Shown here piece by piece: positions 1 to 37,349 of a stretch of 64,000 nucleotides of DNA; positions within the stretch are counted from its first letter, which is position 1; each line of letters starts with the position of its first letter. Under the pieces are notes generated by a model. That model was not told the DNA's origin. It saw nothing but the letters and a program-made list of their open reading frames with translations, and searched no databases. This DNA is from Clytia hemisphaerica (taxonomy: Eukaryota; Cnidaria; Hydrozoa; Leptothecata; Clytiidae). The stretch is from assembly GCA_902728285.1 (NCBI GenBank), contig CACVBU010000237.1, positions 868,001-932,000 of the forward strand. The letters are read 5' to 3'. The position numbers were made by a program, and so were the translations under genes.

Positions 1-88
1 GTAAAATACGAAAATATGTTCATCGGGCATGCCCGATGCATAAAAATTTTTCATCGATGAATAAAATTATGTTCATCAGGCATGCCCG
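1..88 (+). repeat. Left terminal inverted repeat of the giant element
   Basis: It contains the perfect palindrome CATCGGGCATGCCCGATG at 21-38, the 8-bp palindrome CATCGATG at 52-59, and a degenerate third block at 74-88. It pairs in inverted orientation with 25594-25683. The repeat may start before base 1. Confidence 0.85.
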
Positions 89-618
89 CCCAACGGACTT
101 TAAAGAATATCTGGTCTTTGTTTTTAATATAGGCGAGTCAGTCTTTTTTAAATAAAAATCGAATACTAGAAATCTGGTCTTGGTTCTATTACGCCATTAT
201 GCTAATTGCATTATGGGTGCAGACTAGCTTTTACGGCGGGAAAATAAACTAACATAATGGTAGCAGTTTACAGCGGTGTTCTACTTTTTACTAAAATATG
301 TATTTTTTTGGTGGAGTAGCAGGGATTCTTTCTACCCTAGTAAAATAGGGGTGTAATCTTTATTCATTTATTTGATTTCAGACACCAGTACAGATCATCA
401 GGCTATACTCCAAGATGTAAGTAGCCTTGTCAATCGAATTGTGAATTCTAAACTAAATGCAAATAGGGGAGAGATGCAGATGGGATTTATTTAGATTGAG
501 GATATTTCCAGGGGAAATGCGATGCTCAAAATTTCTTTTTTTCCTGCTGTTGTGTGGCAACACAAAAAAGTGTTTAAGGTTGGTGGGTGGGATTGAACAT
601 GTTGCATTGCACCAATGT

Positions 619-1011
619 GACGACCCTGGACACCGCCGTACATTGTACGGTGTTGTACGGTGGGGCTTGATTTAAATGTCCGGTGGGAATTAAAGGTTAG
701 CTTTGAAAACACCGTACATTTTCCCACCGTACATTAAATTTCCCACCGTACAATAGTACGGTGGGAGTGCGATCGCGAAAGACAAGTTCCGTGGTCAAAC
801 TTAATGTACCAAAGAAAGTTTTTCAGTAAGTCCGACCACGGTTGAATATCTAAAAATTTGCATGCTTTCTGAAACTGAAATCAAGTTAAAATGTTGTACG
901 GTGGGACTTGGTACGGTGGTGGAATAAGGTTAACTCGAAATCCACCGTACGTACACCCCACCGTACCCACCGTACAACACCTTACAATGTACGGCGGTGT
1001 CCAGGGTCGTC
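619..1011. mobile_element. Foldback MITE with GTACGGTGG repeats
   Basis: Bases 619 onward (GACGACCCTGGACACCGCCG) are repeated inverted at the right end up to 1011. The arms and centre are filled with GTACGGTGG/CCACCGTAC motifs. CAATGT flanks both sides (613-618 and 1012-1017), which looks like a 6-bp target duplication. No coding capacity was seen. Confidence 0.75.
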
Positions 1012-1478
1012 CAATGTGCAGGAAGGCTCACTTTTTCCAGAGTAGCTGATAAGTGTATTTTTGATGCATTAGAAACGAAATCAAATCAAACTTTTTGATT
1101 ATCGAATTTAATCAAAGTTAATTGAACGATTGAAATGTGATTATCGAATGTATTGAATTGAATATATTTTCACTTCCTTGACAGCAGGAGCGAGAGCCCC
1201 TAATTCTAATTAATTATTAGATTTCTCTTGTAATACATGGGTTGTAATACATGGGTATGAAACAACAACCACTAGATACAATCTATCATGATGATTGTGG
1301 CACATTCCGGATGGAAAATTAGTTGCTTCACTTTTCCTTGCCTGGGAAAGGTTAAAGACTCTGCTCTAGGCCTTCAGGCTTTATAATCTCAATGTGACAG
1401 ACAAATTTTTGAAGCCTTCATTTGCGCTACAGCACTTTTCTTAGGAGTTTCCATCTAGGAAAAATAACGTAATCATGA

Positions 1479-2342
1479 CTACCGTCAACTGCTCCAACTT
1501 GGGACTATCTTGCGCAACATGGGACGACCATTCCACCACCATTTCACCGAACCTCCAAAGTCAGTTGATTTGAGTTAAATGAACTGCGTATTAAAAAATA
1601 CACGATTTCTCTTTCGCACTGGGTAGGCTTTTAAATCGAAATATGAAAAAAATCTTTAGTGGAAAACACATGCAAATGTGAGCGTTTGACGTCACTCGCG
1701 CAGCAAGTTACAAACTCACTATTTGTTAATCTCATCGGGCGGTCAGTCAGATCATCTTCTATAAAATAGAGCTCCTCACTCCATGAAGGCAAAAGCTCAA
1801 CTGAATACCTAGCAATCTAAGGCTCTATTTATACTAAAATGATTAAAAATTAATTATCTCATTAACTACCTGGTTGGGGAATTTTATTTTTCATGAAATA
1901 ATTTATATACACAAAAGACATTTAACAATGTAAAAATTGTTTTCCCCAACAAGGTAGTTAATGACATGATTGATTTTTACTCATTTTAGTATAAATAGAG
2001 CCTTAGATTACTAGATATTCAGTTGGGCTTTTGCCTTCATGGAGTGAGGAGCTATTTTATAGAAGATAATCTGACTGGCGGTAGGCAGTTAGGCCGCAGG
2101 CGTTTTCTAATACTCCATTCGGCGTCCGGTCATTTTAAATGAAAACAAAAGTTAAAAAGTGCGCGCTATCAGTGAAAGTTATTGTGACATGTTATGACAG
2201 AAAGTATGATTGATAAACTTGGTGGAGTTGTCATAACAAATTTGTTGTCAAAGAGATTTAGCAGTAAATGAAAATACAGGCCAGATATCAACAAGTCCCA
2301 TGTTGCGTACACTCGTCCCATGTTGGAGCAGTTGACGGTGGT
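1479..2342. mobile_element. Nested foldback element
   Basis: The outer arms (ACCGTCAACTGCTCCAAC near 1481, and its inverse near 2340) share the GCAACATGGGAC motif. A second, longer hairpin lies inside at 1744-2077, with arms of about 95 bp starting CAGTCAGAT and ending ATCTGACTG. Nothing coding is present. The nesting suggests either one element with degenerate middle arms or a younger MITE in the loop of an older one. Confidence 0.7.
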
Positions 2343-2434
2343 ACAATCCTGGCATTTAATTGTTGGCTAAAGCAATGTTGAATTTAAATGAAACTCATGT
2401 CCCCCTGACCCCTTGTTCAATGTTGAGCTCTAGG

Positions 2435-3105
2435 AGGACCCTGGGTAACGCCCGGATGTCGCCCGGATTTTTCCGGGTAAAAAGTCAGAAAGTAAAAGTA
2501 AAAAGTCATCTAAAAAAACTTAAATCATATTATACAGTTTTACCAAGGTGGCGACCATCAATAATATGTTCTGTTCGCGTTGCCCCCGGCCGACTCAAAA
2601 CATAAATCCCAAGTCGGACGAGTCGGAAAAATGTCAGAATAATTTTTTGATAGCCAAGCACTTCTTTGAATCATCATTTGCTATAAGTTTTTGTTTAGTG
2701 AACCCACATTGAGTCCCGTTTGAGATTTTTTTATGTACCCTTATTGAAATTTTCAAGTCGAAATTCAGCGACCGACCGACTGGATTTGAAGATGTTTTAT
2801 GATCGCCCAAAGAAATTTACTTACTGGAGAAATGATTGTTAAGTCAAGTGAATTCTCTAGCTGCATAACTTTTCTATATGTTTTTCGAAAAGGTCTTTAA
2901 TTTTATTCAATGTTGAGCACGCCCGGTTTCCACCAAGGAGCAGTGTGGGCGTTGGGTGTGTAGGCAGAAAAAGGGCGTTTTCAACCTTTAAATTTTTGCG
3001 GATGCGTCCGGGCGGAATCCGGGTGGTATCCGGGCGTTTTTGACAATCTATTTATTTTTTCCGCCCGGATGCACCCGGAAAAATCCGGGCGTCACCGGGG
3101 GTCCT
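2435..3105. mobile_element. hAT-like MITE, 8-bp target duplication
   Basis: The 671-bp element begins AGGACCCTGGGTAACGCCCGG and ends with the inverse. It is flanked by GCTCTAGG at 2427-2434 and 3106-3113, an exact 8-bp duplication. GCCCGGAT motifs recur in both arms. An 8-bp duplication and a non-coding interior are typical of non-autonomous hAT elements. Confidence 0.75.
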
Positions 3106-3507
3106 GCTCTAGGACAGAATACTGTCACCTGGATTCATCCAAGTAAAGACTCCTTAAACAAAGGGGTCTGGGAAAGGAAAATCTGATTTTTTGATTTTTG
3201 GCCAACATTAAATGCCGGGATTGTAAATACTTACGCATATCAAGAATCTAGGGTTGAAGGTAATCAAATACTATATAATCAAAAGTGATCGAATACAGTA
3301 GTAATTTAAGATAGTCGAATAGTAATAGAAGGTGATCGAATAGTAATCGAAATTAATCAAATTTTTACATTTCTTTATGACTGACATAAGTCCGGTGTTG
3401 GGGTTGTCCGGTGGTACAAAGAAACACCCCCCTTAGTATGTTTGTTTTTAGTCTTAGATTTCTGACCCCCCCCCCTCTTCAATTTTGAAAGTTTCAATTT
3501 TACACTT

Positions 3508-3790
3508 AGGCGAAACAAAAAAAAATTCTTGTTTCCGGAAACCGGCCAGGTGAAAAAAATTTTTTTTCTGACCTGGCCGCAAACTTTTTTTCAGTTAGTA
3601 GTCCGTACTTGTTGTAACTTAGGGCATAATTTATGCTGTGTTTATACATAAAAGTTATTCTTAAACTCTATTTCAATGAGCCATAAATTATCAAAAATAG
3701 CAAAAAAAAATTATTTTCCGGCCGGCCGCATGATAACTTTTTTCCTTCACCCGCATTCCGGAAACAAAACATTTTTTATCGTTCGCCTTA
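3508..3790. repeat. Foldback repeat with GTTTCCGGAA arms
   Basis: The left arm (TAGGCGAAAC...TTGTTTCCGGAA) is inverted at 3760-3790. GGCCGG/CCGGCC blocks sit inside. It lies about 240 bp upstream of the integrase start and has no coding capacity. Confidence 0.6.
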
Positions 3791-4024
3791 TGATAATGAT
3801 TTTGAGTTTATAAAATTGTCTTGGAGATAATTGTTGGAAAATTAAGCAAAAGGTGACGCTAGCTTTTTGTTACACTTCACCATGTTTTGAAAATTTTTGA
3901 ATCGGGTTAATAACATGAGTAGTTAAATAATATGTTATAATATATATATTTTCCTTATAGTCAATTTTTTACGTTTTTTACACACTTAAAATGAACGAAT
4001 TTTTAACTCTGAGTTTCATTCTAG

Positions 4025-5554
4025 ATGGATTTTGCTGAGATAATGGAGGGTATCGAAAGCATTTTGGAACGAATTGAAAATAATTTTGATAGAAGAGATG
4101 AATCTTTAGTTGGAGACATTTCTCGTGAAATTTTGATTTTGCAGCATGCCCTTCCGACTACACCAGTTCAAACACCAAACAATCTATTTGAATTAATCAT
4201 TCAGAATTTGTGTACCATGAGGGATATGATTACCAGAGATCATAGTCACATGTTGCCATCAGGGACAATGTTTTTGTGGGAGCAGCCAACGTTGGAGGCA
4301 GAGCATCCTGTTCATGGTGATTTATCAAACCCCCAAAGAGACAGGGGTAGACCTAGAATTAATATAGATAGAAATACTCTCATTGCACTACGAGAGTTTG
4401 GAAATTCTTGGTCTGAGATTGCTAGAACATTACTAGTTTCACGTTGGACAATTTATAGACGCAAAATTGAGTTAAATTTGCAAGACATTGGCAGTTATTC
4501 CACAATTTCAGATCTTGAACTGTGTGAATTATTGGTATCTTATATGGAGCAACAAAGTAAATTTGTTGGATTTTCAATGGCATGCGGATATCTAAGATCT
4601 ATTGGTTTAAAGGTGCAGCAGAAGCGTGTAAAGTCATGTTTGCGGTTGATTGACCCCCTGTTTAATCAATTGAGATGGGCAACCCTAGTTCATAGGCGAA
4701 GTTACAATGTCCGTTCACCCAACAGCTTGTGGCATTTGGACGGCCACCATAGTCTTGTAAAATATGGCTTTGTAATACATGGTTGCATTGACGGGTTTTC
4801 AAGACTAATTACATTTTTAAAGTGCTCCACAAACAACAGGTCTACAACTGTTGTTGAACTGTTTAATACTGCAGTAAATAATTATGGTTTACCGTCGAGA
4901 GTGAGGACAGATCATGGAGGGGAAAACGTATTGGTTTGGCAGACCATGGAAGACCAGCGTGGCCCTGGACGTGGAAGTGCCATCAGGGGTACTTCCACTC
5001 AAAATCAAAGAATTGAACGTCTCTGGAGAGACGTCTTCAGGTGTGTATGCTCAACTTATTACTATACCTTTCAAGCAATGGTTGATAGTGGTGATTTGAA
5101 CATTGAAAATCAATTACACAAGTTTGTGTTACACTATGTTTTTTTGCCAAGAATTAATCAATCTATCAGCCTTTTTTCAAATTCGTGGAACTGTCATCCC
5201 ATGAGAACTGAAAGAAACAGAAGCCCAATACAAATGTGGCAGAATGGTATGCTAGATATCAGAAATAGAAACTTGGCTACAACTCATTCCCTTAGTGATA
5301 CCGATGACCTTGGTGTTGATGATTTAGAATGGTTTGGCTATGACCCCAATGCTCAAAATAACAACTTCCCTGGTGCTACAGAAAACGAATTAGCCCAGGT
5401 GAATGTAGAAAATGTATTGAACCACCATGCTGACCTTTTGGGATACCTTGGCATGCAACACTTTAATTTAGTCAGAGAATCTGAATCTTTTGGTGTGGAC
5501 ATTTACTTAGAAGTGTTACAAGTATGTCAAAATTTGTTAAATCAAAATTTATAA
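4025..5554 (+). CDS. rve-type DDE integrase/transposase (IS3EU-like?)
   Basis: A 509-residue uninterrupted protein. An N-terminal helical region is followed by a GRPR segment and a helix-turn-helix-like stretch (about 108-150, containing [19 protein letters not shown]). The catalytic core carries D239 (WHLDGHH), D296 (RTDHGGEN) and E331 (QRIERLW), a DD34E spacing typical of the retroviral integrase/IS3 fold. The core is expected to cut and join element ends in the nucleus. The ATG follows directly on a splice-acceptor-like TTTCATTCTAG, so a 5' UTR intron is likely. No frameshift or stop is seen, unlike most transposases in this window, so it may be functional. I infer that it mobilises the element ending at 1 and 25683. 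A relative of the same superfamily lies at 53397-54537, but the two are clearly different families. Confidence 0.85.
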
Positions 5555-7454
5555 GTAACAACATACTTTTTATATACTTATGCTTCTTTTACTTGAGTTA
5601 TTCCTTTGTACAATTTATTTTAAGTTTATCTTTTGATCAAATCAATACTTTTGAAATACTTTTTGACAGTGAAAATGAGCTATGATAAACGAAACTATGA
5701 TAAACTACGAAAATGATAAAATTAATGACATTAGTTGTTGTGATGTCAATGTCTGACCCGAGACCTTTGAAAAAATTTTTTACTGTCTTCATTATGTAAC
5801 CAAATCTCATATTTATTGCATTACCCAGCTCCGGTATTTTCATAGAAAAAAAGATAAAAGTGAAGAAAATTACATGTTAACAATTTTGCACACTTGATCC
5901 TCGAATGAATATCTGGGGGTTTCATTTTTTTTATTTTTCAAAAGAGAAATGGTGATTTGTCTTACCGTCCAATATTTTATGTTTGCAGTTTAGATGATTC
6001 TTAGGTTCTAATGATTGTTTGTTTTGTTTTAGATTTTTTACCAACACATTTTGTAATTCAAGAGTGATAAATTCTTAAGATTATAAAAATTTTCTTACTA
6101 TTTTAAAGACTTTAGCTTGCTTACCATAGAACAAGTAAGATCCCAGAAAAGTTTTCTAAAAATGTTAAAATTTTAATTTGTTGTATACAGCTGTGGTGTC
6201 GTGTGTATTAGCAGAGGCAAGTAGTCGAGTTTTCAATTAAGGTGGCAAGAAGGCAATGATTTTGAACTTTTTTCATGAAAAATTTTTGAAGAAAATTTTG
6301 AATGTCAGTTTGGCACTGCATGCAAAAGTTTTTATTCTGTTACAGCCAAAATAACTAAAAATGACTTTGAAAAGGCCTATCCATATCCTAATCTCTTGAG
6401 AAAAAAAAAACCTACCTCCTCTCGGTTAATACGTCGAGGGTTAGTAGACTTGTAAGTGTCACCTAAAATTTTTGAAGGAAAAATATATTTCCAGGAGAAT
6501 CTGGGAGAATTAAAATACCTTATTACTTCAAATAAACGTCTCCCCTCTAAGGCCTTAACCCTTTAGATCCTTAATGACTTCTGGAAACCCCTAAAAGGTC
6601 TAATTCTGATCAAGTAATAAATAGTGATAGAGAAAGTTTTAAATGAGTGATGATGTGTTGGTTTAAGTCAAACTATACCTTTGTTTGATATTCATAGTAA
6701 TTTCAGTTTGTATTGTTACTCTCGTTATAGTCACTAATAAATTAATGAATAAAGAAAAAAGTATGTGTTGGAATCGCTGTCGTTGATGTGTTAATTGTCA
6801 AGGTGAGTGCCTGTTTGCATGCTGTGAAAGACTGTTCAGGGACCCCCCTCCAGGTTTTTCCCCGCTGAATTTTAACCGCTTGACCAGTCCTTTTCAAATT
6901 TGTTGACTTTTCTACAAATTTATTCTTTCAAAAGATTTTCAAAAAAAAATTTCCAAAGTTTGAAAATAACAGCATGAGCGGCTGCGGATTCAGCGGTAAC
7001 TGCTCAAAACGCCAATTTTTTTAAATTTAAAATTGCGATAAAATCTGAACCACTTGACCAAATCACTTGAAGTTTTGGTTAATGGTTCAGTTTCAGATGT
7101 AGAACAAGACTGCATAAAATTTTTCCCCATAAACTTTTTCATTCTTGACCTCAATTTCCCAGGGGATTTCGTGTTTTTTATCATTTTGGCTCAAATTTTA
7201 CCAAAATTACACAAGAAATGACAGTTTCAAATGACAGTTTCATTCACTGAATCTTGTTTAATGTCACATTTTTCAACTCTGCACCAAGGGTTAAACAGTT
7301 AAATTCCTTTTGATATAGTCGAATAATGAAGCCAAAACTTTGACAGTTTTCAGGTATCAATAAGAGTTTTCAAAAAAATCCAATAAAGTTGCTAAAATCA
7401 ATGATTTCAGCATAAATGACGTAAATTTTTCAGATTTTTACTATAGTAAAAGCA
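5555..7454. other. Spacer without recognised gene
   Basis: AT-rich sequence with only short open frames in all six frames. I see no domain, RNA gene or clear inverted repeat. It includes the probable 3' UTR of the integrase gene. Confidence 0.5.
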
Positions 7455-7817
7455 AGGCTACACCAGCAATCTTTTCTGCAATTTTTGCATGCAATTATTG
7501 CATTGCAAGCGCCTTAACTTTTTATCGTGTAGCCACTAAAAAAGTTGCTCAATACTTTCAGAAAAAAATACAGGAAAAAAAATTTTAGTGCCTCAAGAAG
7601 CAATAAAAAATTACTCTTATTTATAGAAAACTATTACATGATGAGATCAGATATACTTTGTTACAACATTCTTGCAATCTTTTCTGCAAAAAAAATAATT
7701 GCATTGCATTGCAAGGAAATTTACTTTTTTGCACCAGGAAAAATCAAGTGGCTGCACAAACAATTTCTCATTGTGTGTGCAATGCAAAAATTGTAGAGAA
7801 TATTGCTCGTGTAGCCT
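7455..7817. mobile_element. Foldback MITE with AGGCTACAC ends
   Basis: AGGCTACACCAGCAAT at the left is matched by ATTGCTCGTGTAGCCT at the right. TTGCAATC/GCATTGCA motifs repeat between them. No coding potential. Confidence 0.6.
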
Positions 7818-8298
7818 AAACTTAAGGACCAATTTTAAACATCTGACTAAAATCTGCAATATGTTAAATAAAAGTCCTTCCTATGCGATTTCAGAAAATC
7901 AAAACAGAATTCAAAAATCTTTATTTGGTCTCCAGAAGGCCGGAAAACTTTATGATTACGTCATCATAGGTGCGATGACGTCATCAACCTAAAATTTTTA
8001 ATTTTTACCATGAGTTTATATCATTGATGGGAACGTTCTTGCTAAACTTTTCGTTCATAGCACCTCTTAGATCAAAGGTTATTCAAACCTGGTGGAACCC
8101 CCCCCCCCTCCTTGATAATACTAAATTCGAAAAAGCCTGATAATAATTTTGGCTCTAATTAAAAAGCCAAAAAATGCAGTCTATATTTCCTCACTACTAT
8201 CACCTTTTTTAATCATATTCTGTTACTAATATATATATATTTTTTTTACTTCCAGGAAAATTATCAAGCAAAAGAGCAGAGAAAGATTTTAACAAGCC

Positions 8299-8898
8299 AT
8301 GCATTGTTATGTTTGTGACGCGTATTTCCCAAAGGAAGAATCTAAGAACCATGTTCGGTTTCATATGAATCATCATGATGGGAAAATAAAATGTAAAATA
8401 TGCGATCATCGTAGTAGAAATTCTTATGAATATAAGCAGCACATGAACTTGAAACATGACAATAAATTCTTGAAATGTAATGTACAATCTTGTAAGAAAG
8501 AATTCAAAAGCAAAAATGGGTTGAAATACCATCTAGCTAAAATTCATTCACACGGTGTAACTTTAAAATGCTCAAAATGTGATGAGGAATTCGTAACCAC
8601 ACAAAAAAAAGACATTCATTTACGTAAAGTTCATGACGTTGGAAAGTTCGATTGTGTTTACTGCACCAAAAGTTTCTCCTATAAGTGGACATTTGATGCT
8701 CACAAATGTAAAGCTAAGCCAGGACGTGGCTTCATACATAAATGCATAAAATGTAAATCGTTTTTTAAAAAGAAAGAATATCTGAATGAGCATAGAAAAC
8801 ATTGTTTAAACACACGCTCTTATGAATGTAGCTTATGTAAAAAAAAGTTTAATCATCGATCCGGACTCGCCTATCATATTAAAAAGCATTGCCAATGA
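8299..8898 (+). CDS. Seven-finger C2H2 zinc-finger protein
   Basis: A 199-residue protein made almost entirely of C2H2 or C2HC fingers: C3/C6/H18/H22, C32/C35/H48/H53, C60/C65/H78/H83, C91/C94/H107/H112, C119/C122/H135/C137, C149/C152/H165/C169 and C177/C180/H193/H197. The spacing is loose and the linkers are not the canonical TGEKP, so these are not KRAB-type tandem fingers. The ATG is preceded in frame by TAA (8290-8292) and by a splice acceptor (TTTTACTTCCAG, ending 8255), pointing to a 5' UTR intron. The frame is intact, which suggests selection. It sits between the integrase and HECT genes of the giant element and could be a DNA-binding accessory protein for it, but that role is inference; an unrelated captured host gene is possible. 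Confidence 0.8.
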   Translation: MHCYVCDAYFPKEESKNHVRFHMNHHDGKIKCKICDHRSRNSYEYKQHMNLKHDNKFLKCNVQSCKKEFKSKNGLKYHLAKIHSHGVTLKCSKCDEEFVTTQKKDIHLRKVHDVGKFDCVYCTKSFSYKWTFDAHKCKAKPGRGFIHKCIKCKSFFKKKEYLNEHRKHCLNTRSYECSLCKKKFNHRSGLAYHIKKHCQ

Positions 8899-8981
8899 CT
8901 TGAAATGCAATATGTACACGTAAATACCAATTTGTTGGATCCATAACAAATGTTTCTAGTTTTTCTAATGATGTAATGATG

Positions 8982-9335
8982 TACACGTTTTGTTTTTATT
9001 AGAACCTAGTTTATAAGTACATTTAGGCTGAAATTCGTTGAAAAACTAAGAACATTTAAGAACATGCCCAGCCTCAGATTTGAAAAAAATGACAAGAAAC
9101 TATACAATCTTTTTCCCCCTTTTCAAGCAGTTTTGAATGACAGTAGGGATAGATTTTCTAAAATCGAATGTCAAATGTTGTCCAAATTTTACCAATTTTT
9201 AGTACTATTTAGTTTGCATGATATTTTCAATTTGTAGTCTGAAAAATTAAGAACGCATTTAAGAACATTTTAGGCTGAACAAATAAGCACATCAAGGCTA
9301 AGCCATATTTTAGTGTTCTAATAAAAGAACGTGTA
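8982..9335. mobile_element. MITE with TACACGTT ends
   Basis: The inverted ends (TACACGTTTTGTTTTTATTAGAAC and its inverse, each shown here in part) enclose AAGAACATTTAAG repeats. A second member of the same family lies at 47937-48177 inside the Harbinger element. Confidence 0.6.
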
Positions 9336-9567
9336 GGAGATGAGCGTATTGATTTAGATTTTGAAATTTCGTTTATAAATACTTTCAAGTGTTTTTACAA
9401 GGAATATAATTATGAAAAAACTTAGTTTGAAATCATACATTTGTACAGTAAAGTACACTTTTTTTTATAATCAACCGAGTTGCTAAGGCTCCGGCCTTGA
9501 AAATGGCCAAAAACTCAAGCAACTTGGCTTGAGCTTAACCTAGCCCCGAAACTAATTATCAACTCAA

Positions 9568-9760
9568 GGGGACTAATTTTCGCGAGAACTAATTTTCGCA
9601 TTTTTGGTGTCAAGCGCGAAAATTAGTTCTGAGTAAATTTTTCCCAAAATTTCTAAAATTCTTTGGAAAGATGGGTGTCGAGCGCTAAAATCAATTCCTC
9701 AAAATATAAATATTTCAGACCCTCATAGCGCGAAAATAAGTTTCGCGAAAATTAGTTCCC
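9568..9760. repeat. Foldback repeat rich in ACTAATTTTCGCG
   Basis: GGGACTAATTTTCGCGAGA is inverted at the right end (CGAAAATTAGTTCCC). Similar TTTTCGCG-type motifs recur at 54730 and 60890, so this is a dispersed family. Confidence 0.55.
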
Positions 9761-11060
9761 TAAAGATAAGAAAGCAGCCAAAAATACATGAAAAAAGCAT
9801 TTTCGTCATTATTTGGCATCAACATGTGCTTAGGTGCGGCTTAAAAAAGGGCAGCGCTTATTTTGAAATTGAGATTTTATATTTCTGGAGGGTCTTTTAT
9901 GCATTTTTACACTTACTGTCATTTAAATAATGCCAAACTTGACATAGTACTTTCATATTTTTAAGATTTGTCTCTAATAAGAAGTAGGCGCTTGCCCTTA
10001 TTGGCGTTATTTTTTCGTCTCTGGCATAATAAGAGCCGGCGTTAGGGGTCTGAATTAAATTACGACCGGGCTAAAAATGGAAAACGTTAAGATTAGGCGT
10101 AAAAGGGGCCAGCGTTGAATTAGGGCCGGCGTAAAATAGGGCCGATAAGGTAAGTAATTTAGGCATAAAATAAAGAAAAAAGTCAAAATTTTCAAGGATG
10201 CCAAGTGTTTTTGGTTCAAAATCGACAAGCAACTTTTGGCCTTGAAATCCTTAGCAACTCTAGCTCTGAGCGAAAATTAGGGTTGGTTATAAAAAAAGGT
10301 GTACAACATTTTTGTGCAACTCGGATTTTACGAATGCACAAAATAAACACAATTCGCGCACATATGCTCTGTGTGCAACACTATTTGTATCTTTATTATG
10401 TCACAATTATGTTTCTTCTTGTGTTCTATATTATATTCTCATACCTAAATAATAAAAACTTTTTAAATGCAACGGACACTTCTATTTACAAATCCCTTTA
10501 CATCTTTCGCACCTCATTCAAAGACTATTTCGTTAGATTTTTATTCTCCAGCACATTTTCCATAGCCAAGAATGACAAATTTCGTTATAAGCACATCCGA
10601 ATTAGAGTTCAACTTCTGGACGAAAAATAGCTAGAGTTTTCTGGAGAAAGTATCAAGCTGCAGGGTTGACCTCGGAGCACACATTAGTCCAGTAATTTTT
10701 CAACTTAATGAAATTTCTTTATCTACAGTACAAGTCTTCTTTGGGGCAAAAAAGTGCTTCTAGTATACTTTATTTAAAAACAATGAACTTTCTGACATCC
10801 AATTTCTGACATTTAAATAAGCTAATCAGGCAGCAACTATCATCAAAAGAGTCAATTAAAATTGTACAATATGCACGATACATGATGTTGACAGACAGCA
10901 TTCAAACCTCATAACTAGTTTTAAACCACCCCTAAAAGCCTCGTACCAATAGGGTTAAGTCACACCCTCCTCTGTATCAATAAAGCAAAGGCAACCTCGA
11001 GGATCATTTTTGATGGATCTGAGGAAATTTTCTTTTGAACCACCCAGTATATACTACTAA
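9761..11060. other. Repeat-rich spacer
   Basis: No gene recognised. GGGCCGGCGTTA-like motifs occur around 10020-10150. The segment of about 10560-10910 resembles 38990-39315 (shared GGAGAAAGTATCAAGC-type sequence and an ATGCACGATA motif), so both derive from one interspersed repeat. The stretch 10918-10962 resembles one end of the foldback element at 37350. Confidence 0.45.
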
Positions 11061-11280
11061 AAATATTCTACGCACGGAAACAATATTTTACGCACAGAAA
11101 CAATATTTTACGCGCGGAAACAATATTTTACGTACAGAAACAATATTTTACGCACGGAAACAATATTTTACGTACAGAAACAATATTTTACGCACGGAAA
11201 CAATATTTTACACACAGAAACAATATTTTACGTACAGAAACAATTTTTTACGCACGGAAACAATATTTTACACACAAAAT
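11061..11280 (+). repeat. 20-bp tandem repeat, about 10.5 copies
   Basis: The unit is CGCACGGAAACAATATTTTA with an exact 20-bp period and substitutions at two or three positions per copy. One copy has a TTTTTT variant. The repeat explains the long open frame across 11035-11541, which is not a gene. Confidence 0.9.
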
Positions 11281-15063: not shown

Positions 15064-15490
15064 TACTTTATGCCTACAAAGAAACTTTCGAGCAAAAACT
15101 TTCGCGAGGTCGGAACATCGCGAAATTTCGGACATTTACTTTCGCAAATTTAACGAAACAATTTATTTCGCGAGCATAAACTTTCGCGGATTGGGTGATC
15201 AAAATGACAATTTTTGCACCAAAAATGGCTTAAAAGTAACAAATACTTCTTGAATTCGATTTAAAGTGGTATCTTTGATAATTAATGAGGCTTCTAAAGC
15301 ATGAAATTGCTCTACATATAATATTAGTTAATATATTGATTTCGAAGCTTTAAAAATTTTCAACTTTTTCAATAATTTTTCGAGAGTTACCCTTTCAAGA
15401 ATTTTCAAAGGCATTTACTTTCGCGAAAAAGGCCAAAATTAGCGAAAATCGCGAAACTTTCTGCTCGCAAAAGTTTGTAGGCCTAAAGTA
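15064..15490. mobile_element. Foldback MITE with TTTCGCG-rich arms
   Basis: The left arm TACTTTATGCCTACAAAG is inverted at the right end (TTTGTAGGCCTAAAGTA). The arms are dense in CTTTCGCGA. Non-coding. Confidence 0.65.
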
Positions 15491-16255
15491 AAAAGCGAAA
15501 TACTAAAAATGTAAAACATACTCTAGGGTGTCTAATAGACAGGGGGTTGGATTTAAAAATTTCATGGGTTGAAAAATTCAGAAAAGCAGGCTAATGCAGA
15601 AGAATTAGGGCAAACAAAGGAACTTTCAAAAATATTTATCCAATAATTAATAAGGCACACAAGTATTAGGTACCCTAGAGTACGCGTAAAAACGAAATAT
15701 AAAAATACTAACTTTTCTTTAAAATATAAGACTTTTAAAAATGTAAATTAGGTACAAAAATTGACATTTGGCACATTTTCATTAACCGCTCCTGATTCTA
15801 AATCATAAATTCAAATAGAATTATGAAAATGCTCGAGCAGGATGCTCCAAGAATGTTGTATTAAAGTTTATCATACAAATTTATCACGAAACCAAAGATT
15901 AAAATTTCAAATTTAGAGGGATACGCAAACAATTTTATATGATTCTCGTTAAAACTCCAAAGACTTTTTGAACACAATTAGTATTTTTTGTGCATTGAAT
16001 ATCTATCTGTGGAATGCCAGTTTTTGAAAGAGCTTTCTTTTTTATAATAAAATTAGCGTGTATCTAAAGTATACTCTGTAAAATAAAATCTTTATATTAA
16101 CTTAACAAATATTAATATTAACAAGTGTAGGCTCATTTAAATGAAAGGCCTAAATGTGAAAAATTCACCTTTCATAGTTACCTACTTCAAATAGAGGCGG
16201 GAAGACAAAAGACAGAAAACAAGATAAAGTTTTGCTAGTTTAACCAGTGTTAAAC
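15491..16255. other. Spacer with a small foldback
   Basis: ATACTCTAGGGT near 15519 is inverted at about 15680, delimiting a short foldback. No coding sequence or RNA gene was recognised in the rest. Confidence 0.4.
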
Positions 16256-16373
16256 TTAACTAGTGTTAAACTCTGATCCACTTATGATTGACTCCATAAA
16301 ACATTTAAAATCCATACTTTCATCTGTTAGCGCATTGCGAGGAATAGCCAGCATATCAGAATCCATAATGACG
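16256..16373 (-). pseudogene. Duplicated 3' end of the HECT terminal exon
   Basis: On the minus strand this segment encodes LAIPRNALTDES and a terminal ISGSEFN motif followed by TAA. It parallels the end of the HECT protein encoded at 16555-16640 (LAIPRNSVTDELL, and IIDGSGFN before TAG). Only about 35 codons remain and the catalytic cysteine region is absent. It may be a leftover of a tandem duplication or an alternative terminal exon. Confidence 0.65.
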
Positions 16374-16554
16374 GAATCATTCTCCTTATTTTCATTTCCA
16401 GAAAAAAATCGATAAAATTGCAATAGTCAAAAAAAAGAAAACAAATAGAAACAAAACAACCTAAAACAACTAAAAAATCAAGAGTAAAATAAAAGAACAT
16501 CTAGAAGTAGAGTTTTTTTCCAGTAAAGCAAAAATAGAATTAGAAGTCTAATGT

Positions 16555-19500
16555 CTAGGAGGAGTTGAATCCTGATCCATCTATAATGGCTTTGATACAG
16601 ATTCCCAAGAGTTCATCCGTCACAGAATTTCGTGGAATAGCAAGTAGAAAAAAACACGTGGAAGTTGCAAAAGCTGTACCATCAACAAATTTAACTTTTA
16701 TTTTCCTGTTTCTCAAGGCAAACAAGGTTGGCGACCCCGTAGCAAAAGTTAAAAGTTGTTTCAACTCCTGGACACTAAATTCTTCAATGGTGCGTTTAGT
16801 AAGCAGTTGTTCTTCGTTGCTACCATTCACAAATTCCAGCGTAGCAACAACATCATCGCTTGATAATTCTTTCTCACAGACAAAGAACTTCCTCATTTCA
16901 TCAGGGTGTGATTTGATTGCATCAAGCACGCCAAGTGTCTGGAGGCCTTCTCTTAGTTGATCAAGACTGCTTTTTCGTCTGATTAACACATCAAACACCA
17001 CCATTGATTGTAAAATCTTACTTTTAGTATGTTCCTAGAACAGAATAAAAAAAAACTTTATACCCTCAAGTTCCTGATAAAAGGGAAGAGGCAAATTAGG
17101 GCAGAAATAGGCAAATTAGGGCAAAAATAGGCTATTTAAGACAGAGTCCTACTGGGTTGGCTCCCCTACTAAAATTCCGGATTTTTTTCGATTCCCCCTT
17201 GTTTAATATCCCCCACCATTTATTTCAATTTTTTTGGATTGGTTGGGCGTGGTTAGGACCCTTGTTAGGGGTAGCAACCCAAAAATTTCAATTGATATGT
17301 GATTCTTAAGGGTTACTTAGACTACAGCAATATATTGCTCATCAATATATTGTTGAATATTGTTGGAATATTAAAAGCAAGTGTAAGAGCCCCGACAATT
17401 AATTGTTAGCGAAATTTTATTTACTTTTAACGTCTCGCAATTAATTGTCAGGGCTCTTACACTTACTTTTAATATTCCAACAATATTCAACAATATATTG
17501 ATGAGCAATATATTGCTGTAGTCTAAGTAGCCCTTAACACTATATGGCCACTTTTTAATAGGTACCTGGGAATTCTTTTTAATGTTTTGATTCCAACATC
17601 CCCTAATTTTATTTTCCTTTATTTATCCTCGTTAAATTTCAAATTTTTCACTTTCCCCAAATACTTTAATACAAAAAGGGTCAACTTCTGCAGGATAAAA
17701 TTACGCGGATTTGGGTGTCATCCGCAAAAATAAGTCCCAATGGAAATTTGAAAGATCCTCATCCCCGCAACAAATTTTTCTTCAATATAAGAAAATCTTA
17801 AATACTGAATAATGTATTATGAGTTTTGTTTTGCTCTTTCCTCTTTAGATTCATTATTATCGTTCCTCGAATCCCATTCTGCGTGGAATCTTCTCGTATT
17901 CGAATTTTTAACACTATCAAAAGTAATCTATAGAGACCTAAGCCTGATCATCCGAACTAAATCCCTGCGAAAAATTAGCAAACCCCTCATCTGCGAGATT
18001 AAGTCCCCCGAAATCTCAAAATTTAGCAGATGAAATATAATCCCCGCAAAAGTTTATACCAATTAAGTACCTAAAGAAAAGGGGCGAAATCAGAATGATC
18101 CCCCTTTATAAAGGCGGGGAAACAATGACTAGAGCAAATCTTTCTTTTGATATTTTATCTGCTCGTTATTTCACCAGCCCTTTTTCCAACAGCCCTAATT
18201 CTGCCACAGGTTAATTTTACCCTTACGCCAATTAGGGCTGCAAAAACAACCGAAAATTGCCAACTAGGCATCTAAAAAGGCAAAAAGGCCTGTAAAAAAG
18301 GAGCTTGAGGTAAAAAAGTTAAAAAATATTTTTGCTTCCAGTTCAATGGGCGACAAAAAGAGCCGCATGAAATTTTTTTCTCCACATATTGATCCCAAAA
18401 CTCTATTTCAGATTTCATCTTGTAAACAAAAGGAACGTGATTACTAGCTCACCATGATGAATTGGATGCTCGAGAAGAAAGGTTTAAGGTGCAAACAAGT
18501 GAACAAAATTTTAACACAAGAAAGCTAATCATGTACCAAACAACTAAGTATGAAAAAGTCATAAAATTAGGTTTGACAAAACTATCAATAAGGAAAAACT
18601 TACTGTAAGGACCGATCTTTCCCTTATCTCATCTATGATGATACATAATGTCTCATCACTTGATAGCTCCTCCAATTCAGCAGTGTCAGCGTTGCATATC
18701 TGTTTATATAGAAAAAAAGCACAAAATATGAAATTCAACTACCCTGTGCACACTCACAAGTACTAACCCCATAACAGCTCACTATGTTGCCTTGGTGTTT
18801 TCGACCAGATTTTGGATAAATATTAAAATTGGATCGCACAATTGCACATGAAATCAACCCAACCCTTTCTTTTTGGTTTCAGGCAAAACGGTTTACACAG
18901 ATTTGTTTACATTTTCTCATTAACCTTGCCTATGCCAGAGATCCACTTGAGAAACCATGAATGGAGCAATCAGGATCTGCTCAAGAGATTACATGACTTA
19001 AACTAGAAAGAGATTCATTAAATAGTGATTTCATAGACAAGTAGCCAATCTCTAAGTTGCAGAATCGTTTTGTAAAAATCTTTGAAAATTTTTTTTCAGT
19101 GGTGAGACTAAGGTCCTCAATTTAAAGTTTCTCAAGTACAATCATATGCAATCTCAAGGTGATTTTGCATGTGACACCATGCATCCAATTTACAATTTCT
19201 TTTCACTTCTTTGGGAAGGAAGGTATCACAATTTGAAACATACAATTAACTTCAGTGAAAAATCCTTTTCCAACGTTGGCTTTGTGAGTGGGAGAGTTTC
19301 CCAATAAGAAAATATTGAGGTTTACACTAGGGGTGATTTTAGATTCGGCTGAGACCTCATTTCTAATAGAGTGAGACTTGGAACTCCTTCAGGGGACACT
19401 ATGATTTAGAGCTTTTTTCAACAAAAATTCTAGATATCTTGGCCTTTGCTTATTCTTAGCCTTATTGTAAAATTTTTGCTCTCAAAAAGTGTAGCTAACA

Positions 19501-22500
19501 AATGAATAAACAAACAACAGTAGTATTAGGATCTCAAGGTAAAACAGTGTATGCACTGTAACGTGACAGTGAAATAATGAGTATATATTTAGTTACCTTT
19601 TTGATAAGATTCTTGTAGACTGGGCTTGCTACTTCTTTTGAATCAATCCCAAACAAAGAATCCTTGATACAGCCTGTCACAATGTAAGTGTAAATTGTAG
19701 GTGCCAGATATGGGAAACCGTCTCCTCCCTGGCATATATAGTGGGAAATTATTTTTCCAACCATGACAAAGTTTTCATTGATATACGTTTCAGCTGTTGA
19801 TACAGGGAGCAACATTGGCAGTTCCCCTTCAAAAAGCTTGTTGGTTACAACGTAGGGATCTGAAATCTGCTGGAAAAAACTTGTGTAAAACTGACGGAGT
19901 AAGCCACCGAGATCAACCCCAGGTCCCTGCGATGCTTCCGTCGAAAAGATGATTTGTAATGGTATTCCAAAATCCAGATTTGGGTCTTTGTACAGAGTGT
20001 ATACATTATTTACAAGAGTTTCAGGATTAACATGAACAATTGATTTCCGCTTTCCTGCAAGTTGGGCGGTCAGTTTTTTTTCGATAGACACTGGACACAA
20101 TTCCTGAGCAATTATGTCTGCTGCTTCATCAAGGTCAGATGTCTGCGAGAGTGCAGTGTTTACGACATGTGTGGGTGCACCAGGAAATACTCCAGTCAAA
20201 ATTTCAAAATTCCTGTCTCTGCTCCCACCAAGCTGCTGCGAAACATTGGTTCTGCTACCACCAGGTTGCTGTGAATCATTGACTCTGCTACTGCCAGGTT
20301 GCTGTGAATCATTGGCTCTGCTCCCACCAGGCTGCTGTGAATCATTGGCTCTGCTACTGCCAGGTTGCTGTGAATCATTGGTTCTGCTCACGTCAGATTG
20401 CTGAGTGTTGGAGTTATTGGCCTAAAAACAAAGAAAGATTTTGTTCATCTTCAAGAATTTTCTCAAAGTTCTCACAGTGCAGGGGCTTATGTATTCTCGT
20501 GTGCACCATATTTGTTACAAGCAAACTAACTTTGGATCTGATGCCCTGACCCCTCAAGGGTCAAGAAAATTTTGGGTTACAAAATTTTAACACCCCTGTT
20601 ACAAAAAATTAAAGTCGTCAAATCTAAAATTTTTTTTGTTCCATTCGAAAGAGCATGAAAAACCGGTAAAGAAAAAGGCCACAACCTATATCTGAAAATC
20701 TCTATATCTCGAGATATTAAGAAAATAAGGCGACATGACGTCATCTAAAAAGGAAAAATGGTCAAAATGAAAAAACTTTTGGTTCATTTGAGAGAAAACC
20801 TTCCAAGGGAACAAAAAAGATTACTACGAAAAAGTTTGAAAATCGTTTTGAAAGAGGCTTTTTTATTTTAAGTTTTGCCTGTAATCTGCTGGGCTGGGCG
20901 TGCCCAAGCTCCAACCATAGAGATCATAAATAAACCCTAGAGGGTGTGTTTGACATGAGATTTGATGGGAGTTTTTATCAATCTGGTATCCAGTTGATGT
21001 GGGTCACTTTAAAAAATTTGTTCAATGTCAAATAGCAAAACACTACAAGGTCATCATTTTCACCCACATTGACTGGGTACCAGAATCAACAAAACTGCCA
21101 TCAAAGCTTTAGCTGGGCCGTGATTGAGTAACACCCTCTATAGGCTGCGCGCATCCCCGAAATTGATTTTGATATAGGGGATGCGTATCGTGTATGAAAT
21201 TCCCGTCCGAGATCTACCCCAGAATTGGGGTAGGCAAAATTTGCATAAATTTACATAATTTCGTCACATCCAATCAAAGAAAGAAAAAAATGAAGTCATT
21301 GTGTTGTTGTTTCCATAATTATAAATTTTTATTCATGGAACAAAGAAAAAAAGAAGTCATTGTATTGCTATGACGCATAATCAAAAAAGAAAAAAGAAAA
21401 GACGGGGGTAAATTGGGACAGAAATATTTTAGACGATACGCATCCCCTATATCAAATCATATCAGAGGGGATGCGTGCAGCCTACACCCTCTAGGGTTTA
21501 TTTTAGACGCCTGTTTATACTATGTAGAAAAATATAGAAACATATTACCAAAATTTGTTCCCAATTCAACAATACTAAAAACCCTGTTTCTTTTTGTGTT
21601 ACAAAATAACTATTCTTTATTCAAATCGACACTATATAAACAACTATGGGGAACCGCCATGGGAACAAGGCTAGCGCCGGCCTACGCGGATTTATTCCTT
21701 GGAAAATTTGAAGAAACACATATCATAAACAGCCCATTCAATAGTTACATCAAGATTTACAAAAGGTTCCTAGACGATATATTCATAATATGGAACGGAA
21801 ATAAACAAAATTTACTTGACATGTTCAAAAATATCAACAGTGTACATAAACAAATAAAATTCACCATTGAATTCTCTAAAACATCCATTAATTTTCTTGA
21901 CACCACAATATACCTGGACAAACCTACAGACACATATATGAGTAAACTTTATAAAAAACCAACTGATACAGACTCCCTTCTACACTACTCGCCATACCAT
22001 CCGAAACACACCTTAATTAACATTATATATACCCAAATACTTAGATACAGAACAATAACTACAGACAACAAAATTAAAAAAAAGAACTAATGAATCTTAA
22101 ATCCACCCTTCTAAACAGAGGATACCCAAAAAACATAATCAACTCGCAATTATCAAAAATAAAAAATAAAAACCAAAAAGAATATCTCTTTAAATCAAAA
22201 CCAACTCAATACTTTCAACTAAAGATTTAAAGCAAAATGGTTAACGCTACCACAACACCAATAAATTTCGAAAATGAAGACGGTAAGACATTAATATTCT
22301 CCTAATATACTTTGAAATACCTAAGATTTCTTTTGAGTTATGCCACCATTCAGCTGTTAGTGTTTCTGCTACCTCATGGCTATATTTCCCAAATTTTAGA
22401 CTGGACTGTTTTGTAAATTGAAGTATGACTTTTTGCCATATGTGACCTAAACATGCTCAAAATCTTGCTCACCTGTTGAAAATTTCGCAGAACCTGTGGT

Positions 22501-23114
22501 AGTACTCTTTCATCATCATCATCTTCATCAATGTTAAGATCGATGGGTGGCATTCTTTTCAATCGTGCATAAATTTTTCCTTGTCCTGCTAACTTCTTTA
22601 ACTGATCGTAGTCATATGAGAACCCTGAAGCAACAGATGGGGCGTAGATTCTATTTTTATACCTTTTCACAAAAACAAAGTCATCATCTTTGAAGGCTAT
22701 CTCTCCTCTACAGGATCTAACAATTGTTGTCCGTATTTCTGATTCCAACATGTTGCTGTGTAGCGTCAGCATGGTTCTGGCACAAACTAAAACCTCAGCA
22801 AAAGGGTAGTTTTCAATGGCATCCTCTTTAGGAAGCAACATTGTGAGTTCGTGAGTACTCTCCTTAGGAGCTTTTCTCTTTCCTCCAGTCAAAATCCGAT
22901 TTGGATGAGCCGGGGAAGTATTTGTAGTGTTTAAATTGTTGGCACTAGCAGCTGCATTTCTAATCAATGATCTTGTCCTAGCAACCAAGTTTGCCATGTT
23001 TGATGGATTTGGAGGCAAAGGAGATGTTCGAGGAGGGGGAGAGCCAACCATCTCTTCCACCCTCTCTTCCACAACATTGCGAATAAATGTTCTTAATTGG
23101 TCATTTTCTTCCAT
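16555..23114 (-). CDS. CUE-HECT E3 ubiquitin ligase, four exons
   Basis: Exons are 22473-23114, 19597-20421, 18604-18699 and 16555-17034, each bounded by GT..AG and all joined in phase 0, giving 680 residues. Residues 1-214 hold a conserved domain of transposon-linked HECT proteins (LAGQGKIYARL). A ten-residue repeat (NDSQQPGGSR) follows at about 228-282, then a CUE-like ubiquitin-binding segment (about 284-323, GVFPGAPTHVV) and the HECT domain. The N-lobe has GVDLGGLLRQFY and the C-lobe FATGSPTLF, with candidate catalytic C648 in FATSTCFFLL. The family transfers ubiquitin through a thioester on that cysteine. The HECT N-lobe is shorter than the usual 350-residue domain, so substrate or E2 binding may be unusual. 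The frame is intact through all exons. It lies inside the giant element, so I infer that it is a resident gene aiding transposition or countering host silencing. The model rests on splice signals, not transcripts. Confidence 0.8.
17035..18603 (-). other. HECT intron 3
   Basis: Donor ACA|GTAAGT (18603) and acceptor TTCTGTTCTAG (17035) are both strong. The intron contains the long palindromic MITE at 17306-17537 and otherwise unremarkable AT-rich sequence. Confidence 0.65.
17306..17537. mobile_element. Near-perfect palindromic MITE
   Basis: Two arms of about 97 bp are almost identical in inverted orientation (TTAAGGGTTACTTAGACTAC... and its inverse), separated by a loop of about 35 bp. AATATATTG and AATATTC motifs recur. 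It lies in HECT intron 3. The low arm divergence suggests recent insertion or arm gene conversion. Confidence 0.75.
18700..19596 (-). other. HECT intron 2
   Basis: Donor AAG|GTAACT next to 19597 and acceptor ATATAAACAG next to 18699. No repeat or coding sequence was recognised inside. Confidence 0.6.
20932..21504. mobile_element. Composite foldback elements
   Basis: ACCCTAGAGGGTG at the left is inverted as CACCCTCTAGGG at the right (about 21484-21498). A first hairpin covers 20932-21143 and a second (GCGCATCCCC... inverted near 21470) covers 21128-21497. One element appears to have inserted at the end of the other. Non-coding. Confidence 0.6.
21498..22240 (+). pseudogene. Penelope-like element reverse transcriptase fragment
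   Basis: The open frame to 22090 encodes WGTAMGTRLAPAYADLF, RFLDDIFIIW (catalytic LDD), INFLDTTIYLD and LYKKPTDTDSLLHYSPYHPK, all hallmarks of Penelope-like RT. It continues frame-shifted to about 22240 (RGYPKNIINSQLSKI). The 5' part of the RT and any GIY-YIG endonuclease are missing. The fragment abuts the foldback ending at about 21504 and lies in reverse orientation inside HECT intron 1. The upstream codons back to 21413 belong to the foldback and are not RT. Confidence 0.8.
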
Positions 23115-23924
23115 TGTAATTCTTAAATGAAATAGATATGAAAGAGAAAAAATGATAAAAATAATATTGAATTAAAAATGCTTCTAATGTATTTTCCAAA
23201 TCTTTTCAAACACAACACTTTTTCACCAGGTAGATTTGATGGCATTTGATAAGTTCAAGCTGGTTTTTAATTGTTTACCTTAAGGGAAGAAAATTTTGTG
23301 GCATTTAATTTAGCGGTTGAAGGCATTTTAAGTTAGGCTAATCTAGCCTCAAAATATGGAATTTAGAGGTAAAATTTCCGAACGTAAGATTTGTGTTTCT
23401 CGGCATTTTATTTTGCATTTGACACCCAAAACCGCAAAATTAAATGCCGCAAAAATTTCTTCCATTCAGATATGTTCTTTCTACTCTTTTGCCTCTTGAT
23501 GTAAATCAGACTTTTAATTTCGCAAATGATAGAAAATCTGGGAAAATAAATGCTGTAAAATTAAATGGAAAAAGCAATTTTACAAAATTACAAAATTGCC
23601 ATTTGAGGAGCAATGACCCCCTTTGGAAATTCTTAAAAAATGTACCAAAAAACCCTCAGAAAATCAAATTGGAAAACCTCCTGGAAAAGCTTGTCTATAA
23701 CCAGACGGTGCTAATCAATAAATTCGATTATCGAAGTTGTCAATAATGATTGAAGTAATTGAACGACCTCTTATTGATTAACAATTGAATTTCAAGTACC
23801 AAAATCTCTCAGGTGGTCAGAAAGCTTTGGAAAACTCTGTTCCAGTAATTTTTTTTTGATTTTTGTTACAATCCCCTGATAAAAAAGTGCTACGACCACC
23901 CCCAGAACTGAAATTTCTTTGAAT
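23115..23924. other. Upstream region of the HECT gene
   Basis: It lies directly 5' of the HECT start and so should hold its promoter, but I recognise no core element. An open frame at 23444-23746 has no recognisable domain and lies in repeat-like AATTTTACNGCA sequence. Confidence 0.4.
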
Positions 23925-24128
23925 ATGACCCTGCCGGCGCACCGAACAGTCTGGTGTTAAATACCGGGAGCTCTAAGCACTGGACATGCATCAGAAAAAA
24001 AATAAATGTGTCACCGAACACTTCGGACTTCAGACTTCCATAAGTCTGGTGTTGGGGTTGTCCGGTGGTAAAAAGTATTCTTATCAAAATGTCCGGTACC
24101 ACAATATCCGGTGAGCTGGCAGGGTCGT
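23925..24128. mobile_element. Short MITE with ACGACCCTGCC ends
   Basis: ATGACCCTGCCGGCGCACCG at the left is inverted at the right (CCGGTGAGCTGGCAGGGTCGT in part). An internal block AAGTCTGGTGTTGGGGTTG recurs at about 3388, so related sequence occurs twice within the giant element. Confidence 0.6.
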
Positions 24129-24518
24129 CTTTGCATTTTCCGGGCCATTTTCAATGTTTCAAACTTAAGCTCGGTATTTGAAATGATTGAAAGTTAGCGC
24201 TAAGTACGGTACAGATTCGTTAGTGGATGCGAGCAGCCTATGATTTACCGTATTCTTCCAGTCAATCAAGCTAAGTTTCCTGGAATCGAAAAAGTTATGG
24301 TAAACCTTTATAGGGCAAACTTTTTCATCACTTGCCTAGAAATTTTGGTCTGGTTCACCGACAGCCTGGGGGTGGATAGTTTGGCATGTGTATATCAATG
24401 TAAAAAACACTTCACGGGTCTCCTGTCTAGTTTACTGTCAGTAATTCAAATGATGTTTGAATGGTGATCGATAAAATGTTGTGTAATCAAAATGATCGAA
24501 GGTAATTCAATGTAACCA

Positions 24519-24950
24519 AGCCCCCGCGCTCGATAAGATCGATCATCAGAACGGCTCGATGACGGATCGATATGTGATCGATGGATTACTTATCGATCCG
24601 GATAGGAGATCGATAGAAGATCGATACTCAAGATTTTTGGACCAAGATCATTAATCGATTACCTATCGATCGTTTATCGATCCATAATCGATAAATATAC
24701 GTACTCGATATCCGATCGATAATAGTATACCAAAAGTATCCAATAGTAAGTATTGATAATCGATGAAAGATCGATCGGCAATCGATCAAAATATGGATCG
24801 ATAAGGGATCGACAACGGATCGATACTCAAGATTTTTTATGGCTCAATCCTCTATCGATCTCCTATCCGGATCGATAAGTAATCCATCGATCACATATCA
24901 ATCCGTCATCGAGCCGTTCCGATGATCAATCCTATCGAGCGCGGGGGCCT
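24519..24950. mobile_element. GATCGAT-rich hairpin MITE
   Basis: The arms begin AGCCCCCGCGCTCGAT and end ATCGAGCGCGGGGGCC, and match closely for well over 100 bp each. The sequence contains more than 20 ATCGAT or GATCGAT motifs, so it is self-complementary at both large and small scale. Non-coding. Confidence 0.75.
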
Positions 24951-25593
24951 GGAATGTAATCAAAAGTAATTGAAATGATCAAACAGTAATCAAAATGCTC
25001 GAACGAATCGAAAAATGGTAGAAAAAAATACCAAAATAGTTGTGTGGTGTGGGTATTCGATTACCGATAAAATCAATAAGTGGTCACTTACCACCTTTGA
25101 TTATTATCGATCATTATTGATTACTTCGATCATGATCGAACATCGGATTAGGACCGTCTGGTCTATACCCTTGTATATGGTCTAAAAATGGAAAAGCCCA
25201 ATGAGTCTAGAACAACAAGCATTATAAAAACATATGCAATTTGTTGCAGTTTTGATTCTGGATTTCATGATAAAAAATCCAAGGTAGAGAAAAGAGGAAC
25301 CCTTACAGGAACATATACCATGGCCAAAGATCATTTCCAGACTCTAACACCCTAACCTAGAAAAATATGATGGTATTCAATAAAATATTCCTACCTTTCT
25401 TCCACCGTCCACGTCCAACAGTCAAAGGGTCCCAGTCAAAGACTCGTTTTTTGAAACTGAAACGTGCTTTGCGAATATCGTCCCAAAACAATAATATTGC
25501 GGACCGGAATTCTTGTGTCTAGCCTGTACCATTCTGCGCAAAAAGACTGCGAAAGCAAATTTGAGGACCAGAAACACTTTTGAAGATTTTTAT

Positions 25594-25683
25594 TCGTCGG
25601 GCATGCCCGATGAATATAATATATTCGTCGATGAAAATTTTTATTCATCGGGCATGCCCGATGAACATATTTTTGTGTTTTAC
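25594..25683 (-). repeat. Right terminal inverted repeat of the giant element
   Basis: It is the inverted partner of 1-88. The outer palindrome CATCGGGCATGCCCGATG lies at 25646-25663 and an inner copy with CGTCGGGCATGCCCGATG at 25595-25612; a CGTCGATG block sits between them. The outermost matched bases are GTTTTAC at 25677-25683, after which similarity with the left end cannot be tested. Confidence 0.85.
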
Positions 25684-32391: not shown

Positions 32392-32503
32392 TAAATAGAT
32401 CCAAGATCATTTGAATATACTTTTTGTAAATATTTCAATGTTGGAACTAAAAGATATAAAAGAAATGATAAATCACAAATGTAACGTCTCTAATAGTTCT
32501 CTA
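32392..32503 (-). repeat. 3' LTR of Gypsy element
   Basis: 112 bp, identical to 37928-38039. It begins TAGAGAAC and ends CTATTTA on the coding strand, rather than the common TG..CA. Confidence 0.9.
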
Positions 32504-37344: not shown

Positions 37345-37349
37345 ATTTA

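Follow-up and report, generated by a model that had tools for sequence, protein, structure and literature searches.

A HECT ubiquitin ligase gene inside a putative young IS3EU-type DNA transposon of the jellyfish Clytia hemisphaerica

Introduction

Why transposons with an integrase-type transposase should carry enzymes of the ubiquitin and SUMO pathways is a question that has been raised in print for the proteases of Ginger1 elements (PMC2836005). It arises again in a stretch of 64,000 nucleotides of the Clytia hemisphaerica genome (C170:868001-932000), which we call the window and in which positions are counted from 1. An earlier reading of the window (the original prediction) proposed that positions 1 to 25683 are a young, giant transposon, bounded by terminal inverted repeats and likened to IS3EU elements, with intact genes for an integrase, a zinc-finger protein and a four-exon CUE-HECT protein. 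The evidence given here supports the view that the element is a young IS3EU-type DNA transposon with terminal inverted repeats and a HECT gene inside. We put the probability of our full reading, a recent insertion of a low-copy, ~24-26-kb IS3EU-type transposon with selected C2H2 and HECT cargo, at roughly 0.8, an estimate that leaves the target of the ligase aside. A stand-alone HECT ligase gene with signs of past selection on a young jellyfish element makes the question testable.

Results

Termini and size of the element

The genome searched comprises 417 Mb in 951 contigs. An alignment of ten ends from six contigs gives one sharp border, with termini at C170:867935 and C170:893781; the element is thus 25,847 bp long, starting 66 bp to the left of window base 1 and ending at position 25781. 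The terminal sequences in the ten family ends, TATGGTTGA..TCAACCATA, have the form TATGG..CCATA. Inverted repeats with palindromic units are indeed present at 1-88 and 25598-25683, as first described (88 columns, 90%), but bases 1 and 25683, which had been taken as the exact borders, miss the termini by 66 and 98 bp, and the true left end escaped notice because it is hidden by the window edge. The terminal repeats are ~154 bp (left) and ~184 bp (right) long, and each holds a 22-bp palindrome, TTCATCGGGCATGCCCGATGAA, in two or three copies that are not all perfect; these units are likely binding sites. Inside them GGGCATGCCC fits the p53-family half-site consensus.

Copies and insertion sites

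A genome search with both ends found complete end pairs at C170, C342 (1309052-1335347) and C146 (15777-40019), and one insertion split over C146:14290 and C656:28105 with its interior within N gaps. Unpaired ends lie at C926 and C351, and C169 gave a weak match. No short end pairs resembling miniature inverted-repeat transposable elements (MITEs) were seen in this search, and we reject MITE ends as the source of the repeats, since the ends located all come from a few insertions, long or incompletely assembled. Further copies carrying these genes do exist, and together with the empty sites described below they back the claim of a young, giant element with a HECT gene inside. The C342 copy aligns with the C170 copy over its full length with 36 mismatches in 25,712 aligned bases (0.14% substitutions); it lacks two stretches of ~0.1 kb and has additions of ~0.13 and ~0.55 kb upstream of the integrase. 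A 547-bp insert in C342 (1313094-1313640), just upstream of the integrase, has AT-rich borders and no clear target duplication, and the left end of that copy (C342:1309052-1309300) contains an extra 53-bp palindrome unit.

The element inserts precisely and duplicates 6 bp of target: paired duplications occur at four insertion sites (TTTTTA, CTTAAG, AGGGGA and GGAACT), two of which (TTTTTA and AGGGGA) are confirmed by uninterrupted empty sites. TTTTTA flanks the C146 copy on both sides, and CTTAAG does the same for the split C146/C656 insertion. When the flanks of C146 are joined, three matches to the empty TTTTTA site run without interruption over 66-498, and another 34 cover ~65-283. The C170 copy has AGGGGA on its left and GGAACT on its right, and C342 has the exact reverse, so that the duplications pair crosswise and each flank of the window element stems from a different original insertion. 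Joining the left flank of C170 to the right flank of C342 yields the empty AGGGGA site, which is matched without interruption by 40 listed genomic repeats at 96-99%, spanning position 1 or 3 to 477-495 across the junction at 250.

Taken literally, the second refuting condition named in the original prediction, the lack of a matching duplication at the two outer borders, applies in this assembly: the two duplications differ at the window element itself, and they pair perfectly with those of C342. A crossover between the two nearly identical copies accounts for this mismatch, and we consider one in the assembly more likely than one in the chromosomes. A true reciprocal translocation, arising by recombination between the copies, would equally produce the perfect crosswise pairing and the uninterrupted crosswise empty site; it is nonetheless rather unlikely, as near-identical 26-kb copies are a usual spot for assembly errors and gaps interrupt a further insertion of the family. 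The swapped duplications therefore flag a likely crossover in a public assembly.

Genes of the window copy

The integrase and zinc-finger frames, both predicted to be intact, are open (Table 1). The integrase has the triad D239, D296 and E331, with 34 residues between the second D and the E (DD34E). Its match to rve (2e-7) lies just under the cut-off, an N-terminal HTH_7 match is weak (8e-4, below the curated cut-off), and Pfam gives no match to a zinc-binding integrase domain in the 509-aa protein. Relatives number 1448 in the protein collection at E<=0.001; among the 120 of these matches listed, all with an organism name are cnidarian (for example Clytia, Hydractinia, Acropora, Montipora and Desmophyllum), and none was found in viral contigs.

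The HECT gene has GT-AG introns in phase 0 and a reading frame without an inner stop. Its product has a HECT domain with a C-lobe cysteine, as expected of a HECT ubiquitin ligase, and we take Cys 648 (motif ..STC..) to be the catalytic residue. The four exons, the HECT domain and the open 680-aa frame of the proposed CUE-HECT gene all stand, whereas the CUE part comes down to a resemblance: no Pfam profile for CUE matches the protein, and an FP...L(L) motif is what we take to resemble CUE by motif only. The region is modeled as three helices with moderate confidence within a full model that is poor (mean predicted local distance difference test score, pLDDT, 46), and for this reason we use the model only for the C-lobe and the three helices. 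The model of the N-terminal domain is also poor (54), and its top fold matches, ubiquitin-like and Ras-binding at E 0.006 or worse, serve as a lead only. HECT is the sole family among the best 50 structural matches, which does not thereby exclude other families; a sequence comparison with solved structures gave no match at E<=1. In the protein collection the C342 version appears as an uncharacterized C. hemisphaerica protein, and the matches listed include no homologue beyond this Clytia record. The end of exon 4 recurs as a short, diverged copy just downstream of the gene (16259-16354, minus strand), and the reverse-transcriptase-like fragment in intron 1 is presumably Penelope-like, by motif only.

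Association of HECT and integrase loci

Genome-wide locus counts were taken from whole lists (86 of 86 integrase, 69 of 69 HECT and 139 of 139 Harbinger rows) and are lower bounds, because the search scores only the best candidates. Within 20 kb of any of 80 integrase loci lie 17 of 44 HECT loci (39%; 0.34 expected if uniform), against 4 of 106 loci (4%; 0.81 expected) for a Harbinger transposase control. The difference is significant by Fisher's test (p = 1.6e-7) and remains so without the family's own three loci (3.5e-6). A generic C2H2 control, for which 88 of 134 rows were used and 46 left out, gave 71 loci, six of them within 20 kb of an integrase, five being the family itself. At C635 an open 492-aa integrase frame (673348-674823) is followed ~1.5 kb downstream by a convergent HECT C-lobe exon (676297-676797). 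Integrase loci of another family (C410:548229, C897:427503 and C939:456292) have identical query scores, which suggests recent spread.

Signs of selection on the cargo and mosaic structure of the element

The zinc-finger gene follows the family integrase at all five loci that carry it (C170, C342, C146, C944 and C926). No paired ends were seen at C944 or C926, and the left end at C926 is 48 kb from its integrase. C146 keeps the order integrase, zinc finger, HECT, the last as a 3' piece in the same orientation. Judged by DNA identity with gaps left out, the window copy is a mosaic of a shared transposition module and a deeply diverged cargo block, because identity levels differ between the two. 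Between the C170 type and the C146/C944/C926 type, identity is 93% in the left end (ends of C146 and C926) and 96-98% in the integrase, and falls to 75-77% in the zinc finger; in this gene the latter three copies are 97-98% identical to one another.

Between C170 and C146 both cargo genes show signs of past selection in their ratios of nonsynonymous to synonymous substitution rates (dN/dS): 0.106 for the zinc finger (dS 1.56, 198 codons) and 0.174 for the HECT piece (dS 1.60, 99 codons), values that rest on one lineage pair and are rough because dS is near saturation (~1.6). These limits belong with several observations that weigh against our reading. For the integrase the same pair yields no useful ratio (dS 0.025; dN/dS 0.50, interval 0.12-2.3). 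HECT is complete and in frame in C170 only, has a stop in exon 1 in C342, and is reduced to the 3' piece in C146; of the five loci with integrase and zinc finger, two (C944 and C926) yielded no HECT, so that the transposon can perhaps do without it. No single open frame spans the integrase of C342, C146, C944 or C926, and a stop interrupts the zinc finger of C944; the window copy alone is therefore open throughout. Finally, no terminal repeats were found within 20 kb around the C939 integrase-HECT locus, and around that at C635 two candidate pairs were found within 14.5 kb, against 1.9 by chance; because neither locus has above-chance repeats, carriage of HECT within transposon ends is established for the window family only.

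Two other accounts of the cargo draw on some of these observations. HECT and the zinc finger could be passive passengers captured from the host, with the selection reflecting an earlier host function. The absence of HECT at two of five family loci and its truncation in C146 are what this account would lead one to expect, as are the 27 of 44 HECT loci with no listed integrase within 20 kb. We regard it as unlikely, however, given a zinc finger at five of five family loci, low dN/dS for both genes between two transposon lineages, and a HECT-integrase association far above the Harbinger control.

Alternatively, the HECT gene might belong to another transposon nested in the integrase element, and the association would then reflect repeat clustering only. 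Further nested repeats do sit inside the element, and Harbinger genes, too, are enriched near integrases some fivefold over a uniform spread (4 against 0.81). Yet the orientation of HECT and its side relative to the integrase and zinc finger are the same in C170/C342 and in C146, at a dS of ~1.6; the association (39%) is about ten times that of the control (4%); and no inverted repeat of at least 25 nt in 1-27000 closely brackets the HECT gene alone. We therefore consider nesting very unlikely. As for the block arising from misassembly or from end-like repeats paired by chance, the mismatched outer duplications and the split C146/C656 insertion that enters N gaps might hint at it, but its probability is negligible, since a full-length second copy, a third with perfect duplications and the empty sites already refute it for the element as such and leave only the joining of flank to copy in doubt.

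Other features of the window

Outside the element, where the original prediction regarded nearly all other transposon genes as broken, an open Gypsy-type polyprotein frame of 1287 aa (32724-36584, minus strand) lies beside a second open frame with a weak PNMA match (36523-37356, minus strand). Two 112-bp segments, 32392-32503 and 37928-38039, match each other at 100%, so that this unit is perhaps a young long terminal repeat element. A second PF24764 integrase frame (53533-54537, 334 aa, 1e-11) is 23% identical to the element's own. A Harbinger-type frame (50221-51093) is 291 aa long, its nearest relatives' frames being 369 aa; relatives at four other genome sites match it at 92-94% over 264 residues. 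A 0.7-kb palindrome at 62682-63372 is 86% self-complementary.

Table 1. Coordinates of the element's features, counted in the window
Feature	Position	Strand	Remarks
Left terminal inverted repeat, in-window portion	1..88	+	true end (TATGGTTGA...) at C170:867935, AGGGGA directly before
Nested palindromic repeat, MITE-like	1744..2077		85% self-complementary
Integrase-type (DDE) transposase, open	4025..5554	+	509 aa; PF24764 6e-81
Module boundary stretch	5690..8298		shared transposition module (93-98%) against diverged cargo block (~75%)
C2H2 zinc-finger protein, open	8299..8898	+	199 aa from first ATG
HECT-type ubiquitin ligase gene	16555..23114	-	680 aa; HECT PF00632 3e-10
HECT exons 1-4	23114-22473, 20421-19597, 18699-18604, 17034-16555	-	
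Nested palindromic repeat inside HECT intron 3	17306..17537		90% self-complementary
Reverse-transcriptase-like fragment, HECT intron 1	21374..22090	+	no Pfam match
Nested palindromic repeat close to right end	24516..24952		arms 94% complementary
Right terminal inverted repeat	25598..25781	-	terminus ...TCAACCATA at 25781, then GGAACT

Discussion

A mechanism consistent with these observations can be outlined. The integrase-type transposase would bind the palindromic units near the ends and cut at TATGG..CCATA, and cut-and-paste transposition with a 6-bp stagger would follow, a step that the insertion products support. Selection has probably maintained the C2H2 and HECT genes as functional parts of the element. 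The C2H2 protein may assist by binding DNA, perhaps at the subterminal palindromes, and the targets tagged by the HECT ligase may be host proteins of transposon silencing or break repair. We suggest these roles because both genes bear marks of selection and because Ginger1 carries proteases of the ubiquitin and SUMO pathways; that both roles hold jointly is possible, and we would sooner wager against it. Related elements recombine between their left transposition module and their cargo block, as the identity levels show, and the mosaic records an exchange of cargo between transposition modules.

These results suggest that elements of this kind exploit the protein-tagging system of the host to promote their own spread. 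More tentatively, and at somewhat less than even odds, a hydrozoan clade of IS3EU elements may encode HECT and C2H2 proteins as standard auxiliary genes and swap its cargo block, with the ligase acting against silencing or steering repair. If so, transposons would bear a ubiquitin-conjugating system, in contrast to the known transposon-borne deubiquitinases. The substrates of the HECT ligase and the need of the transposon for it are the questions that this opens.

Three known groups bear on the class of the element. Polintons or Mavericks are large and carry genes for a protein-primed DNA polymerase, a packaging ATPase and capsid proteins. We reject this assignment, as no polymerase, ATPase or capsid gene occurs among the eight frames of at least 150 aa in 1-25781, shorter frames being unscanned. 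The likeness lies in the integrase and in the 6-bp target duplications given for Polintons in the available part of PMC10045372.

The element has three features of IS3EU: TA..TA termini, a 6-bp target duplication and an IS3/IS481-like DDE transposase without an HHCC zinc domain. Its ends also fit the TAYGG..CCRTA termini of fungal IS3EU elements, but those members carry TET/JBP and alpha-kinase genes in place of HECT and C2H2 cargo, as described in the available part of PMC12730594. HECT is not mentioned in the available main text of that paper or in the main text of PMC4255032. A literature search outside Repbase entries and subscription journals found no publication on IS3EU and HECT together, and none was found that links Clytia HECT genes with repeats. 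The IS3EU class is already known, and within the literature searched a stand-alone HECT ligase with C2H2 cargo appears to be new for such elements.

Ginger1 is a close parallel in the combination of an integrase-type transposase with an enzyme of the ubiquitin or SUMO pathway. The available portion of its description tabulates twelve Hydra families, reports OTU or Ulp1 protease domains and proposes a role for ubiquitin in transposition (PMC2836005). We reject a Ginger1 assignment, because the 6-bp duplications are not CCGG/CCGT and the 509-aa protein has no Pfam match to H2C2, OTU or Ulp1 at E<=0.1, whereas in Ginger1 the duplications are specific to CCGG/CCGT and the transposase bears an H2C2 zinc domain (PMC2836005, same portion). 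A further difference is that the Ginger1 proteases are domains of the transposase, and the HECT ligase is a separate gene. In our proposal, the HECT ligase would be the conjugating counterpart of the OTU and Ulp1 enzymes of Ginger1.

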